From NCBI RefSeq assembly GCF_023101085.1, contig NZ_CP064703.1, forward strand, positions 6,324,001 to 6,388,000: DNA of 64,000 nt, written 5' to 3'. Below the pieces are notes generated by a model. It was not told the DNA's origin and did not search any database. It saw nothing but the letters and a program-made list of their open reading frames with translations. The translations under genes were made by a program, and so were the position numbers. Shown one piece after another: positions 25,450 to 33,776 of the stretch (the first letter of the stretch is position 1; every line of letters begins with the position of its first letter). The DNA comes from Bradyrhizobium sp. 170. GTDB taxonomy: Bacteria > Pseudomonadota > Alphaproteobacteria > Rhizobiales > Xanthobacteraceae.

Positions 25450-26805
25450 TCATCTGGCCTTCCGCCATGGCGCATCGGCCTCCCAATCGCCGGCCATGAT
25501 CGAACCGTACGGGATCACCTCATCGATCACCTCCCCGAGGCCGTATTTCGTGATCTGCGATCGTACCGATGCGGCGTTCTTGTAAGCCTCCGGCAGTTCC
25601 GACAGGTCGGGCTTACCGCAGTAGCGGGCATCGATGCCGGTCGGCAGCCGAGGCTTGTTCTCGCGCAGGAAAGCCTTGCGTCCGATGTTGCGGCCGGCGC
25701 CGTGGGGCGCGAAGCCAAGCGCTTCCTTGTTGTCCTTGTGCTTCAGCACCAGGACCGGTTCGGCCATGTTGAGCGGAACGATGGTGCGTCCGTCATCATC
25801 ATCCGAGAAGCCGGACCAGTTCGGGGTAGCCCCCTTACCGTGGTCGAACAGGCCATCTGCCTTTCTGAAGACGAAGTTGTGTTCGTTCCAGAAGCGATCG
25901 GCGACACCATTTCCGATTTTCGTGGCGGTAAGGTCATGGATCGCCTGGTGGTTGGCCTTGGTCCAGAGTCGCACGATCTGCAGCGCCTCCCAGTAGGCAC
26001 GGCCGTGTTCGCTTGACGCCTTGATCCAGGCATTGTGGCTGGGGATCTTCGGCGCGTGGATCGCCGTGTGCTTTCTGGCGACCGCCATTCCGCGCTTGTA
26101 AACCTGGGCGCCAAGGCCGCGAGAGCCATGGTGCGTCACCAATGCGGCATGACCCGTCGACTTGAGGTGACCGACATAGGCAAAGTGATTGCCGTCGCCT
26201 TGCGTGGCGTAGTGACCGATCGCGAACCTCTCAAGTCCCCTCAGGAACGGATTGCCGTCAAACCTCGACATGATCTCGTCGGGCGGCATGTGAACGCCGT
26301 CTCGGCCGCCCGGACCGAAATGGGTGACATCCCAAACGGCATCGAGAATGCGCTTTGGATTATCCTTGCGGGCAAACACGGTCATGGCGACCGAGCAGCA
26401 AATGTCCGACGAATGGAATCCGGGATGTATCGCATCGTCGCATGCCACGACACCGCCAACCGGGATCGTCCCGGCCACCGTGCCGGACGGGCAGGCATCG
26501 GGCATCACAGCGCCGGCCACGATCGTCGGGACTCGCATCAATGCATCCATATGCTGGGCCACCGCCGCGATGTTGGCACGTTCCAACTCGTTCTCGGCAT
26601 CGATCAGCATCGAGAACTGGAGGCCGTTGGTTCGCATCAGCGTTTCGATCGGCTGCAGGGCCTGCAGCGCGACAAAGATCGCATCGTCATCCGCGCCGCC
26701 GGCACGCATGGTGCTGGCGGTCTGCAAGGCATCCTTGAACCAGCGCCCCGGTTTGAAGCCCCAGGCGATCAGGGTGTTGCCGTCAATGGGCTGCGATACT
26801 CTCAT
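25450..26805 (-). CDS. rtcB: RtcB-family RNA ligase (slipin-associated branch)
   Basis: 451 aa. The manganese and guanylation residues of RtcB can all be placed: Asp134 and Cys137 in SSDICCS, Asn206-His207 in GDGNHF, His225/226 in VTHHGSRGLG, His309 in WNEHNFVF, and the guanylated His368 in APHGAGRN. RtcB joins RNA 2',3'-cyclic phosphate or 3'-phosphate ends to 5'-OH ends with GTP. The N-terminus (GFKPGRWFKDAL) differs from the E. coli type. It lies 80 nt after the slipin gene and downstream of two tRNA-like RNAs, so it is probably a damage-repair ligase. Confidence 0.93.
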   Translation of the reverse strand: MRVSQPIDGNTLIAWGFKPGRWFKDALQTASTMRAGGADDDAIFVALQALQPIETLMRTNGLQFSMLIDAENELERANIAAVAQHMDALMRVPTIVAGAVMPDACPSGTVAGTIPVGGVVACDDAIHPGFHSSDICCSVAMTVFARKDNPKRILDAVWDVTHFGPGGRDGVHMPPDEIMSRFDGNPFLRGLERFAIGHYATQGDGNHFAYVGHLKSTGHAALVTHHGSRGLGAQVYKRGMAVARKHTAIHAPKIPSHNAWIKASSEHGRAYWEALQIVRLWTKANHQAIHDLTATKIGNGVADRFWNEHNFVFRKADGLFDHGKGATPNWSGFSDDDDGRTIVPLNMAEPVLVLKHKDNKEALGFAPHGAGRNIGRKAFLRENKPRLPTGIDARYCGKPDLSELPEAYKNAASVRSQITKYGLGEVIDEVIPYGSIMAGDWEADAPWRKAR

Positions 26806-26885: not shown

Positions 26886-28037
26886 TCATGCGTTCTCCGC
26901 GGGCTTCAGACGGACCAGCTTTGTGAGCAGCGCGTCGAAGCCCTGCCCGTCACCCGCATGAAGGTCGATCCGGCCGACCTTCTCCACTAGCCGCTCCAGC
27001 GACTCCAGCTCCTTGAGCCGCAGCAGCAGAGGGTTCTCCTCCATCAGCCTGGCGGTGTTCAGGAGCGACCGCGTCGCCGCCGTCTCTTCCTGCCGGCGGA
27101 TCAGGTTCGCCTTCGCGACCCGCTCCGCCTCCACCACCTTGTTGACGAGCTCGCGGATCTCGCCAGGCAGGATCACGTCCTTCACGCCGAGTTCGGAGAC
27201 CTCGACACCGCTGTCGGCGATGCGCTCGCGGACGTAGTCGCGCAGCTCCGCATCCAGCGTAGCCTTCGCCGACAACACCTCGTCGAGCGTGCGGCCGGCA
27301 ACCGCCTCACGGATCGCGAACTGCACCAACCGGTACAGCCACGCATCCACGTCGGGCACGGCCGCGACCACGCGCTCGGGGTCGACGATCCGGCGGAACG
27401 CCGTCAGGGTCACACGCAGTGCGATGCGATCCCTGGTCAGCATTTCCTGCGCGGTGATCTCGACCGCCTGGGGACGCAGATCGAGGCGCTTGACCTCGAT
27501 CTTGCGGCCGGCGATCCAGAAGGCGTGCCGGCCCGGCGCAAGCCGCTCCACCAGCCGGCCCTCGACGTAGAGCAGACCAGCCTCGTGGTTTTCGACCACC
27601 GCTTCCGTCACGATGGTGGGACGGTTGCGCTCGATCATCGCAAGATGACGCTCGGTCACCCGGGGATCGCCCGCCACATCGATGCGCTCGACATCGATGG
27701 AGGTAGCGACCTTCCAGTAGACACGCGCCTGCCAAGGCGTCATCAGGTGCACGGGACGGCCGTCGAGGCTGACGATGGCGATCTCGTTCGCCTTCGTCTC
27801 CACAGCCTCGAACAGCTCCGTGGCCAGATCAGGCCGCGCGGCCTTCAGCACGGCGTAACGCTCCGCGGGGAATTCCGCGCGAACGACGTTGAAAATCTCC
27901 ACCGTCAACTGACGCTGCAGATCGAACAGCCGGTGACGACCGGGTTCGAGCATGCGCTCGAGCCTGCCGTTACGCGTCAGCAACGCGCGCTCGCCATCCT
28001 TCACCGTCAGCGTCTTCATCAGCAAATGCCAGGTCAT
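26886..28037 (-). CDS. Slipin / SPFH (Band 7) domain protein
   Basis: 383 aa. Start MTWHLLMKTLTVKDGERALL with GGAGG upstream; an earlier in-frame start at 28175 has no site. Slipin features: a repeated YVEGRLVERLAPGRHAFW-type segment (residues about 170-187), the SPFH core with LRVTLTAFRRIVDPERVVAA and RDYVRERIADSGVEVSELGV, then a coiled region AERVAKANLIRRQEETAATR. There is no strong N-terminal membrane helix, so it may be a soluble scaffold. It lies between the tRNA-like RNAs and rtcB on one strand, the arrangement predicted for Band-7/RtcB RNA-repair systems. Confidence 0.9.
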   Translation of the reverse strand: MTWHLLMKTLTVKDGERALLTRNGRLERMLEPGRHRLFDLQRQLTVEIFNVVRAEFPAERYAVLKAARPDLATELFEAVETKANEIAIVSLDGRPVHLMTPWQARVYWKVATSIDVERIDVAGDPRVTERHLAMIERNRPTIVTEAVVENHEAGLLYVEGRLVERLAPGRHAFWIAGRKIEVKRLDLRPQAVEITAQEMLTRDRIALRVTLTAFRRIVDPERVVAAVPDVDAWLYRLVQFAIREAVAGRTLDEVLSAKATLDAELRDYVRERIADSGVEVSELGVKDVILPGEIRELVNKVVEAERVAKANLIRRQEETAATRSLLNTARLMEENPLLLRLKELESLERLVEKVGRIDLHAGDGQGFDALLTKLVRLKPAENA

Positions 28038-28371
28038 GGCACGCCTCCATGGTTTGCCCTCCGGCCCTCGCGGGGTCGGAAAGCGGGTTTCGTTTTGCAA
28101 AGGACGTGGGACGCGGACGACGCTTCCTGAAAGCTCGGCGGGCCAAGTTTGAGCTTGCGCAGATAGCGGGCGCACGCGCTCGATCGCTCGACGTGTGTCG
28201 AGCGGTCAAACGTTGCCACCCGGCATCAACGCAAGCGGTATCCACCGCGGCGCAAAGCCGGTCTCACAGTGTCTAGGTTCGGACGAAAAGCCTTGCGGCG
28301 ATGCGGCCGGACTGCGACTGAAGCGCGCGTCCGGTCCCCTTCAATGGGAATCAGCGTATTAGGCTGAACCG
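28038..28371 (-). other. Leader between tRNA-like RNAs and slipin gene
   Basis: 334 nt on the minus strand with no gene. It contains two hairpins: CGCTCGAC-GTGT-GTCGAGCG (28185-28204, perfect) and CCGGAC (28307) paired with GTCCGG (28329). These may be processing sites in a transcript that begins with the tRNA-like RNAs. Confidence 0.55.
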
Positions 28372-28444
28372 GAGCGGAGCGGGATTCGAACCCACGACCC
28401 GATGATTATGATTCATCTGCTCTACCCAACTGAGCTATCCTTTG
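28372..28444 (-). ncRNA. tRNA-like RNA 2: CAU anticodon arm, broken acceptor stem, no CCA
   Basis: Read on the minus strand, 73 nt. D arm GCTC-AGTTGGGTA-GAGC, anticodon arm GATGA-ATCATAA-TCATC (anticodon CAU, canonical U33 and A37), variable GGGTC and T arm GTGGG-TTCGAAT-CCCGC are all intact. The acceptor strands CAAAGGA and TCCGCTC pair at only four of seven positions, and CGGT stands where NCCA should be. It begins immediately after the CCA of the preceding tRNA-like RNA. It cannot be a normal elongator tRNA; it may be a tRNA-Met/Ile2 relic or a purposeful tRNA mimic. Confidence 0.75.
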
Positions 28445-28516
28445 TGGTGCCATAGACCGGAATCGAACCGGCGACCTTCGGGTCACCCCGACGCTCTACC
28501 GCTGAGCTACTATCGC
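28445..28516 (-). ncRNA. tRNA-like RNA 1: full cloverleaf with GUGA tetraloop in place of the anticodon loop
   Basis: Read on the minus strand, 72 nt. Acceptor GCGATAG/CTATGGC (six of seven pairs) with encoded ACCA; D arm GCTC-AGCGGTA-GAGC; T arm GCCGG-TTCGATT-CCGGT. The anticodon arm is TCGGG-GTGA-CCCGA: a five-pair stem closed by a four-base GNRA loop, so there is no anticodon. The molecule could be recognised by tRNA-processing enzymes and the CCA machinery but cannot decode. Position upstream of slipin and rtcB suggests a substrate, guide or cofactor RNA of that repair module. A possible -35 (TTGACC) lies at 28613-28608 with only a weak -10. Confidence 0.82.
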
Positions 28517-28709
28517 GTCTTCACCTGGCGGAACACGAAACCGCAAGACCGGCCCGCGCCAGTCGGGATCACAACGAGCCCGAACCCATGGCCAAAGCGA
28601 AGGAGCGGGTCAATAGACGAAACATCTTTCAGTTGCAAGAGCGCTGAGGAGATTTTTTTCGCGATCGAGGAGATGCTGTGTCTTCACCATCACAGCGTTA
28701 ACCGAGCTT

Positions 28710-32022: not shown

Positions 32023-33363
32023 TCAATCCTTGAACGGATCGAACTCATTCTCGCCAGCCATGGCGACAGCGAACGGGCGCAGCGTGTGCTGCACCTTGAT
32101 CGAGCGAGCGTGCTCGGCCAGCACCTCCGTCAGCCGGCGATAGGCCATCGGACTTTCATCGAGGTCAGCGCCTACCAGCGTCACGCCACGCGATTGCAGC
32201 CAGGCGTCCATCTCGGACCGCGTGAACCGCCGCTTGGCCTCCTTGCGGCCAAACAAACGGCCCGCGCCGTGCACCGTCGAGTAGAGCGAAGCCTTCGCCT
32301 CCTCGCTGTCGACGCCCTCGACGATGACCGCGTCGTCGCCCATCGATCCGCCGATGAAGCCACGCTGGCCGGGAAATGCCGGCGTTGCGCCCTTGCGCAC
32401 TACCCACAAATCCTTGCCGCCATGGTTCTCCCGCCACGCGTAATTGTGGTGGTTGTGAACCATGTCGGTGACCTCGCCACCGATAATCCTGCGCACGCGC
32501 TCGATCACCCATTCACGGCCGGCATAGGAGTAGCGCCCGGCGAGTTGCATCGCCGCGATGTAACGCCGCCCGATCTCGCTGTCCTCGTCGATGACGGCGG
32601 GCGGCACGTTCATGCCGTCCTTGCCGCCCGCGGCCTTGAGGTAGCGGGTCGCGCTGGTGTGGCCGAGGCCGCGGCTGCCGAAGTGCACGCCGATCCAGAC
32701 AAAACCCTCCTCGTCGCGCAGCAGGTCGACATAGTGATTGCCCGATCCGACGGTGCCGAGTTGCGAGACCGCCTTCTGCCGATAGGCGCCCATGTCGGAT
32801 TCACGCCACGCGTCGACGTCGTCGAACAGTTCATGCTCGACGCGCTCGTCGTTGGTGCGTCCGACGCCGAACGAAATCACGTTGTGCACGTCCTTGATGA
32901 TCGCGCCAACATTGCCTTCGATCTGGCTGAACGACGTGTCGAGGCGCACGGCCATGTTGCCGCAACCGATGTCGAAGCCAACGCCGGAGATGCTGATCTG
33001 CTTCTCATAGGCGATCACGCCGCCGACCGGCTGCGCATAGCCGAGATGCCCGTCAGCGCAAATCACGCCGGCGACTGCGTTGCCGACCGACATGCAATTG
33101 CGCATCTGCGCGATCGTCGCGTCATCGTGCTTGCCGAATATCTTGAGCGGGCTGTTCTGATACTGCTCCGCTTGCGGCTTGAGCGCGACATCGGCGGCAA
33201 CGGCCTGCGCGTCGCGCGCAAGCTTCTCCTTGCGCGCGGCATCGCGAAACAGGCACCACGTCGGCATCGGTCGCTGGCCGGGCCGATCGATCTTCGCGTC
33301 GGGGTCAAGCCCGGCTTCGACGGCCAAAGCCCTGGCCCGCTCCTGGTAGGGATCGGATCGCAT
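32023..33363 (-). CDS. rtcB: RtcB-family RNA ligase, second paralogue
   Basis: 446 aa. ATG at 33363 with AAGGAGG upstream; the GTG at 33378 overlaps that site and is rejected. Active-site residues are complete: Asp131/Cys134 in DIGCGN, Asn209-His210 in GSGNHY, His227 in VHFGSRGLGH, a His in VHNHHNYAW and the guanylation His in VHGAGRLFGR. Sequence differs widely from the RtcB at 25450 (N-terminal PMPTWCLFRDA and the QPVGGVIAYEKQ loop). No archease, RtcA or RtcR gene is adjacent. Confidence 0.93.
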   Translation of the reverse strand: MRSDPYQERARALAVEAGLDPDAKIDRPGQRPMPTWCLFRDAARKEKLARDAQAVAADVALKPQAEQYQNSPLKIFGKHDDATIAQMRNCMSVGNAVAGVICADGHLGYAQPVGGVIAYEKQISISGVGFDIGCGNMAVRLDTSFSQIEGNVGAIIKDVHNVISFGVGRTNDERVEHELFDDVDAWRESDMGAYRQKAVSQLGTVGSGNHYVDLLRDEEGFVWIGVHFGSRGLGHTSATRYLKAAGGKDGMNVPPAVIDEDSEIGRRYIAAMQLAGRYSYAGREWVIERVRRIIGGEVTDMVHNHHNYAWRENHGGKDLWVVRKGATPAFPGQRGFIGGSMGDDAVIVEGVDSEEAKASLYSTVHGAGRLFGRKEAKRRFTRSEMDAWLQSRGVTLVGADLDESPMAYRRLTEVLAEHARSIKVQHTLRPFAVAMAGENEFDPFKD

Positions 33364-33776
33364 CTGATCCTCCTTCACTGCAATATACTACGTTCCGAAG
33401 GCCCTTCGGGACTCCGGTAGAATCCCATGTCAGTCGCGACACGGGCCGGTTCGGTTTGCAGGCAGGGAGTTGGGAGGTGCATTTAGCCGCGAAGGGCATC
33501 GTGCGGATCATTTCTCGCTGCCTGGACGGCAGAGGGAGGACCCGCCGCCGTCTTACGCTGCTGGTTCGCTTTGCGAAATCGGTGCTCTCGTTGGATACAC
33601 GACAACCGAACACGCCAAAGCGCGACCGCGCCGGACGACCGGCTGGCCTGCATAACGTGAACCATTGGTGTCTATACGAAGCATCGTCTTTCCCAGAGAT
33701 CGGCGAGAAGCGCGCGATCACATACAGCAATTCCAGGATTTGTAAATAGGGCCGGCAACGTCCACTTGTGCCGGCG
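33364..33776. other. Non-coding gap
   Basis: 413 bp between the second rtcB and the DUF899 gene. Several open frames of 60-140 codons exist on both strands, but none has a ribosome site together with recognisable sequence. Nothing further seen. Confidence 0.5.

Follow-up and report, generated by a model that had tools for sequence, protein, structure and literature searches.

A predicted leader RNA with two tandem tRNA-like domains upstream of slipin genes in Bradyrhizobium and its relatives

Introduction

Y RNA with Ro60 and vault RNA with its SPFH-containing shell are analogues of the kind of RNA-slipin ribonucleoprotein (RNP) that is considered here. Burroughs and Aravind are said to have proposed in 2016 that the SPFH proteins of repair systems have a tRNA-like RNA as their cognate RNA. 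Further related systems have been described. YrlA occurs in the RNA-repair operons of some bacteria (PMC8394870), and its tRNA-like domain has been suggested as a possible competitive inhibitor of a nuclease (PMC7790460). A comparative study presents the TROVE proteins of repair systems as a platform that has a tRNA-like partner, and also describes RlaP there (PMC7824862). In Pseudomonas aeruginosa, an SPFH gene is reported within the rtc locus (PMC13086221), and RtcR is reportedly regulated by damaged tRNAs (PMC7790460).

We analyzed a stretch of 64,000 nucleotides from Bradyrhizobium sp. 170 (the window; contig NZ_CP064703.1, positions 6,324,001 to 6,388,000), for which a preliminary description had reported one tRNA-like RNA with a GUGA tetraloop in place of the anticodon loop. 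The locus has the arrangement of the 2016 proposal, a tRNA-like RNA beside an SPFH gene, which here encodes a slipin. The GTGA cap is one of many loop variants, and the RNA as a whole is old and widespread.

Results

The first tRNA-like RNA occupies positions 28445-28516 on the minus strand and forms a full cloverleaf with a GTGA-closed anticodon arm and an encoded CCA. ARAGORN calls a tRNA at 28445-28516 (-) but can assign it no anticodon, and 28448-28516 (-) scores 56 bits against the Rfam tRNA model (E 2.2e-9; gathering score 29). Six of the seven acceptor pairs are formed, the third being G-G, and ACCA is encoded, i.e., the 7-bp acceptor and NCCA end of a decoding tRNA are present apart from one mismatch. 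The anticodon arm (28478-28491, minus strand; TCGGG-GTGA-CCCGA, read from the sequence, with stem covariation in relatives) has a 5-bp stem and a 4-nt loop in place of the 7-nt loop and readable triplet of a decoding tRNA. The preliminary description was right about this cloverleaf, its tetraloop, its six acceptor pairs, and its CCA, and also about slipin (28037-26886) and an RtcB-family gene (26805-25450) lying downstream on the same strand; its view that an RNA incapable of decoding is kept upstream of slipin is supported. In single-sequence folding, the minimum-energy structure contains no cloverleaf and the folding energy is ordinary (z -1.29, with 26 of 200 shuffles equally good); support for the cloverleaf comes from the tRNA model and the comparative evidence.

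The first tRNA-like RNA is thus present as described, but a second one directly behind it had been overlooked. It lies at 28376-28443 (-), has D, anticodon, and T arms, and matches the Rfam tRNA model at 28376-28440 (-) with 47.7 bits. The 7-nt anticodon loop, with the triplet CAT, is that of a decoding tRNA; the acceptor end is not, with a helix of about 3 bp and no CCA. Among 32 relatives, the D stem is invariant, the anticodon stem is paired in 100% of cells with double-sided changes at all five pairs, and the acceptor helix is 64.7% paired, only its inner pairs holding. Within the anticodon arm (28401-28417, minus strand), a hypervariable loop (28406-28412) sits between nearly invariant stem strands. 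The loop has 7 nt in 77 of 84 loci, 65 of these 77 carry U33, and 24 triplets occur. Across 43 Bradyrhizobium loci, column entropy averages 1.02 bits in the loop, compared with 0.03-0.23 in the other parts of the domain, and 14 triplets are found in 39 seven-base loops; each triplet position has 1.15-1.55 bits, whereas there is hardly any variation at A37 and at nine of the ten stem positions, the exception being an A/G alternation at stem position 28416. An unconserved stretch upstream has an entropy of 1.32 bits, about equal to that of the triplet. As the loop does not exceed this stretch in entropy, drift under a missing decoding constraint would suffice to explain the variety of triplets, with no need for active diversification.

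For the anticodon loop of the first tRNA-like RNA, we parsed 84 of 93 loci (leaving out L008, L034, L083, L086, L087, L089, L100, L107, and L109 in our numbering), of which 79 had the first T-arm and 77 could be parsed; after nine misparsed or atypical cases were dropped, 68 remained, the loop of L094 being assigned by hand from its sequence. The loops range from 4 to 9 nt (4 nt in 16 loci, 5 in 10, 6 in 14, 7 in 20, 8 in 7, and 9 in 1) and comprise 45 distinct sequences, and CCA is encoded in 34 of the 68. Double-sided changes occur at four of the five pairs of the anticodon stem, with 53 such cells against a shuffled mean of 12.4, and the compensatory changes sought in the 5-bp stem are therefore found. 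The 100% pairing of this stem is partly by construction, as the parser favors paired solutions, and the number of pairs with double-sided changes was reached in 23 of 2000 shuffles with all rows and in 80 of 2000 with distinct stems. Five loci (L004, L005, L007, L114, and L035) are without a full first tRNA-like RNA, which makes that structure dispensable. The preliminary description had named loci lacking the structure and random stem substitutions as evidence against it; the former do exist, but the stems stay paired and do not change at random. In L100:3013-3132, L107:3011-3130, and L109:2923-3099, the first tRNA-like RNA is, by reading, apparently circularly permuted (T-arm, acceptor hairpin, D-arm).

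Both tRNA-like RNAs lie within one conserved leader, which spans ~566 nt up to the slipin start. A promoter-like site at 28610-28638 (-), made up of TTGCAA (28638-28633), a 17-nt spacer, and TATTGA (28615-28610), predicts an RNA start near 28603. In 38 of 85 loci, the best-scoring site is TTGCAA with a 17-nt spacer, which in most cases lies 22-24 nt ahead of the 5' domain segment used; in the window, 60% of 50 shuffles score as well as the promoter-like site, and a generic sigma-70 scan of the leader returned no promoter site. In 26 close loci, a column conservation of 0.45-0.64 gives way to 0.87 at about 28607, just past the promoter-like site and close to the predicted RNA start, and the blocks between this point and slipin average 0.63-0.97.

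The 5' domain consists of two hairpins at 28524-28591 (-) and is matched by our R2 model at E 2.9e-10 (6352524-6352591 in the window genome, G000). A pattern search for the domain gave a match in 85 of 92 loci, and R2 matched three of the seven missed (L094, L100, and L031). In an alignment of 38 of the 85 pattern-matched loci, its 16 pairs are paired in 96.3% of cells, 11 pairs show double-sided changes, and the covariation is 0.274 against 0.110 when shuffled and at most 0.083 with slid partners. One G-U pair of the second helix is kept in 38 of 38 sequences and a second G-U pair in 36 of 38; the helix also has a single-base U bulge. Behind the tRNA-like tandem, a 3' domain (28038-28368, minus strand) extends to the slipin start and carries a GCGCC..GGATACCG motif at 28253-28235. 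The motif GGATAYCG, which was picked after inspecting the sequences, occurs in 60 of 112 leaders and 0 of 111 control stretches; with the listed variants included, the counts are 81 of 112 and 1 of 111, and 1 of 14 in other classes.

The slipin (26886-28037, minus strand; 383 aa) has an SPFH/Band 7 domain (Pfam Band_7, 2.5e-30 on the longer frame 26886-28175), and a profile search found stomatin relatives in the PDB at 3.1e-29. A vault-like fold was considered but rejected, the sequence search of the PDB giving stomatin, QmcA, HflK/C, and flotillin and no major vault protein. Of 149 family genomes sampled, 7 have an intact orthologue (at least 79% identity) and an eighth, G095, has a broken one; slipins of ~40% identity are present in five other genomes among 385 of the class, and 23 of 398 genomes of a phylum sample have a match at E 1e-35 or better. 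Phage carriage and membership in known defence families were also considered and rejected: slipin had no match in 50,697 phage records at E 1e-10, and in PADLOC neither slipin nor either RtcB, nor the slipin or RlaP of E. coli, had a match at E 0.001.

Our R1 model, for which 32 of the 93 loci were used, places a tRNA-like RNA upstream of slipin in 91 of these 93, the exceptions being L008 with its broken slipin and L087, cut by a contig end; several of the loci come from the same or near-identical genomes. A tRNA-like RNA also lies upstream of slipin in 20 of 21 additional loci, L130 being truncated at a contig end. The distance to the slipin start is typically about 260-600 nt. These loci are not independent: L003/L070, L005/L072, and L007/L073 are seemingly from the same genomes, and the tRNA-like RNAs of L001 and L036 are identical. 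R2 finds the 5' domain in 7 of the 149 family genomes, which are exactly those with an intact slipin, in one adjacent copy each. In the class sample, it finds only the window genome, though six genomes carry slipin, and in other classes it matches 7 of 14 loci at E <0.01. The co-occurrence of 5' domain and slipin is therefore shown only within the family, and the single match among six carriers implies that the model misses the most diverged 5' domains. The locus with the broken slipin (L008, from G095) has neither a tRNA-like nor a 5' domain match, which fits joint loss.

Directly 3' of slipin lies a gene for a divergent RtcB-family protein (25450-26805, minus strand; Pfam RtcB, 92.9 bits), and direct slipin-rtcB adjacency of this type recurs in L037 and L078. 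Among the matches listed, which by title are mostly from Bradyrhizobium and other alphaproteobacteria, RtcB lies within about 3.5 kb of slipin in 8 of 80 named loci, several loci being cut by contig ends; all eight are Bradyrhizobium, and they have two different RtcB types. Searched for anywhere in the genome (E 1e-15), RtcB was found in 3 of 7 family carriers and 3 of 10 other alphaproteobacterial carriers, i.e., in 6 of 17, and was not found in 11 of 17 (4 of 7 within the family); RlaP was found in 4 of these 17 and not found in 13. With these counts, RtcB was rejected as a constant partner in alphaproteobacteria. The earlier link to RtcB holds up in other classes, where 13 of 14 loci have it within 1.5 kb of slipin, but such proximity is uncommon in the 80 named loci, and as 11 of the 17 alphaproteobacterial carriers give no match, a role in repair cannot be general among them. 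The constant partner of the leader is slipin, not RtcB. Elsewhere in the window, a second RtcB (32023-33378, minus strand; Pfam, 218 bits) is located ~5 kb from the slipin-adjacent one and is 29% identical to it; a third is found in the window genome at G000:C1:4677791-4678540 (Pfam). The window also encodes a Tlde1-domain protein (Pfam PF10908; 30584-31759, minus strand), which many of the Bradyrhizobium relatives likewise have close to slipin.

The leaders of Citrobacter and E. coli stand ahead of slipin and RlaP; Citrobacter has RtcR next to them as well. Together with the RtcB genes near slipin in other classes, this places the unit in the RNA-repair network. The leader is short and keeps one T-arm, the only part that R1 recognizes; its hairpins resemble the 5' domain by eye, and R2 gave E 0.85 against the Citrobacter leader and no match against that of E. 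coli. Both leaders lie downstream of a sigma-54-like site, and such a site is present in 8 of 22 non-edge loci. The short leader occurs, unannotated, in 1624 of 5426 complete E. coli genomes (~30%), including strain W. One T-stem pair differs among five aligned E. coli alleles, being T-A, T-G, or C-G, except for a single allele that has the non-pair C-A. At the locus of E. coli W (L149:3001-5239), slipin and then RlaP are accompanied by a zeta-toxin-family gene on the opposite strand. In E. coli TUM12355 (L154:301-821), the leader match runs into an annotated nucleotidyltransferase gene, and no slipin is annotated between.

In searches for known RNA families, the two tRNA matches were the only Rfam matches at E <0.1 in the window leader. 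For the window leader and eight further loci, the YrlA model (RF02553) stayed below its cut-off of 69, with 20.2 bits for the window and 39.9 bits at best. The best sub-threshold match is L109 (39.9 bits, E 1.5e-5), which hints that YrlA-like modules may derive from a tRNA tandem. No TROVE (rsr) gene was found by Pfam among six window proteins scanned; of 17 carrier genomes, one, that of the window, has a weak, partial TROVE match far from the locus (G000:C1:5101069-5101332). Among the matches listed from the open-licence literature, judged by title and the start of the abstract, we found no description of this RNA.

Discussion

We estimate at roughly 0.5 the probability that the leader is a non-decoding, tRNA-mimicking RNA partner of a slipin ring, showing a tRNA face. 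We favor this reading because the leader is tied to slipin, has a strongly conserved non-tRNA domain, and carries tRNA-like parts that do not decode. Transcription from the promoter-like site would give a single structured RNA of ~566 nt that runs into the slipin gene and comprises the two-hairpin 5' domain, the two tandem tRNA-likes, and the 3' domain, in this order. Following processing, this RNA could be bound by the ring that slipin is expected to form and act as its partner, protein binding probably falling to the 5' domain. Enzymes that handle tRNAs, or nucleases, may meet a tRNA face in the tRNA-like parts, chiefly in the T-arm and acceptor, although these parts cannot decode. The GUGA loop would simply cap an arm that lost its anticodon.

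The main rival is a leader that acts in cis, in which the tRNA-likes of the 5' UTR would sense tRNA processing or damage enzymes (e.g., RNase P or Z, nucleases, or modification enzymes) and set slipin expression with no action in trans. A fixed position in cis to a single gene would be just as expected of a cis-regulatory RNA: the leader is on the slipin strand wherever it was seen, no separate copy of the 5' domain was found in the 149 family genomes, and sigma-54-like sites stand ahead of the Citrobacter and E. coli leaders. A scan of the window leader also gave one terminator-like site, inside hairpin 2, with 0.9 expected by chance. However, the tRNA-like tandem and the CCA encoded in half of the first copies suggest that a processed RNA is released, and we consider purely cis action possible, if somewhat doubtful. 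The second tRNA-like RNA could instead be a bait or sensor for anticodon nucleases, offering a loop of fixed architecture with a fast-changing triplet, such that the cut RNA is repaired by RtcB or RlaP or signals to RtcR where these are present. The nearly constant loop length, the frequent U33, and the many triplets within a hardly varying arm are in line with this, as are the regulation of RtcR by damaged tRNAs and the possible nuclease inhibition by YrlA, as put forward in one source (PMC7790460). Nevertheless, we regard this role, appealing as it is where RtcB, RlaP, and RtcR are present, as improbable: the triplet varies about as much as the unconserved upstream stretch, which drift explains, 48 of 68 first tRNA-like RNAs have a loop of some other length than 7 nt, R1 recognizes no more than a T-arm in the leaders of E. 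coli and Citrobacter, and the patchy occurrence of RtcB and RlaP in alphaproteobacterial carriers means that the role cannot be general.

The preliminary description had instead interpreted the GUGA loop as a conserved GNRA docking element. GNRA sequences do make up 10 of the 16 four-base loops, in several lineages, and yet these are 10 of 68 loops overall; 52 of the 68 are not four bases long, the sequences are highly diverse, and GTGA itself occurs in 4 of 42 Bradyrhizobium-type loci, so that docking has become very improbable and the four-base loop that was expected to be conserved is not. The frequency of GNRA among the four-base loops fits a stable cap. The GUGA loop thus looks like a cap rather than a docking motif, on an arm that no longer has an anticodon, and the first anticodon arm seems to be kept as a stable cap whatever its closing loop. 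That the pair is no more than decaying pseudogenes of ordinary tRNAs is scarcely credible. Acceptor and anticodon features are indeed broken, and the first tRNA-like RNA is reduced or missing in some loci, but the tandem, its order, its stems, and the flanking domains are kept, with compensatory changes, across slipins of ~40% identity and across classes. Decay was rejected, as random stem substitutions would be expected and the stems stay paired with covariation.

If the leader is an RNA partner of slipin, it may belong to a large, so far unmodelled class of structured RNAs of ~300 to 600 nt in RNPs with soluble slipin rings, a generalization that we offer tentatively. The 5' double hairpin, with its invariant wobble/bulge helix, would be the defining element of this class, accompanied by at least one tRNA mimic with a freely varying anticodon loop; repair by RtcB would be optional, and a minimal form with only the T-arm would be present in ~30% of complete E. 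coli genomes. What began as curiosity about one loop has led to a testable object, i.e., an old and widespread RNA with two tRNA mimics that is evolutionarily tied to an SPFH scaffold protein and bears on what SPFH proteins do in RNA repair. The compact and probably related locus of E. coli W, a laboratory strain, would open RNA binding, control by RtcR, and the response to tRNA cleavage to direct tests.

Among described RNAs, tmRNA and other Rfam RNAs resemble this leader in that a longer RNA includes a tRNA-like domain. The nearest family in Rfam is YrlA, whose cut-off the leader fails to reach; both have a non-decoding tRNA-like module and a ring-shaped protein partner (a predicted one in the case of the leader), which is slipin here and Rsr in YrlA. 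The SPFH-linked RNA proposed in 2016 reportedly shares with this leader the position of a tRNA-like RNA beside an SPFH gene, with RtcB in many loci, although RtcB is patchy among the loci analyzed here. The tandem of two tRNA-likes, the two-hairpin 5' domain, the 3' domain, the extent from promoter-like site to slipin, the free anticodon loops, and the RtcB-free form of alphaproteobacteria may distinguish the leader described here.
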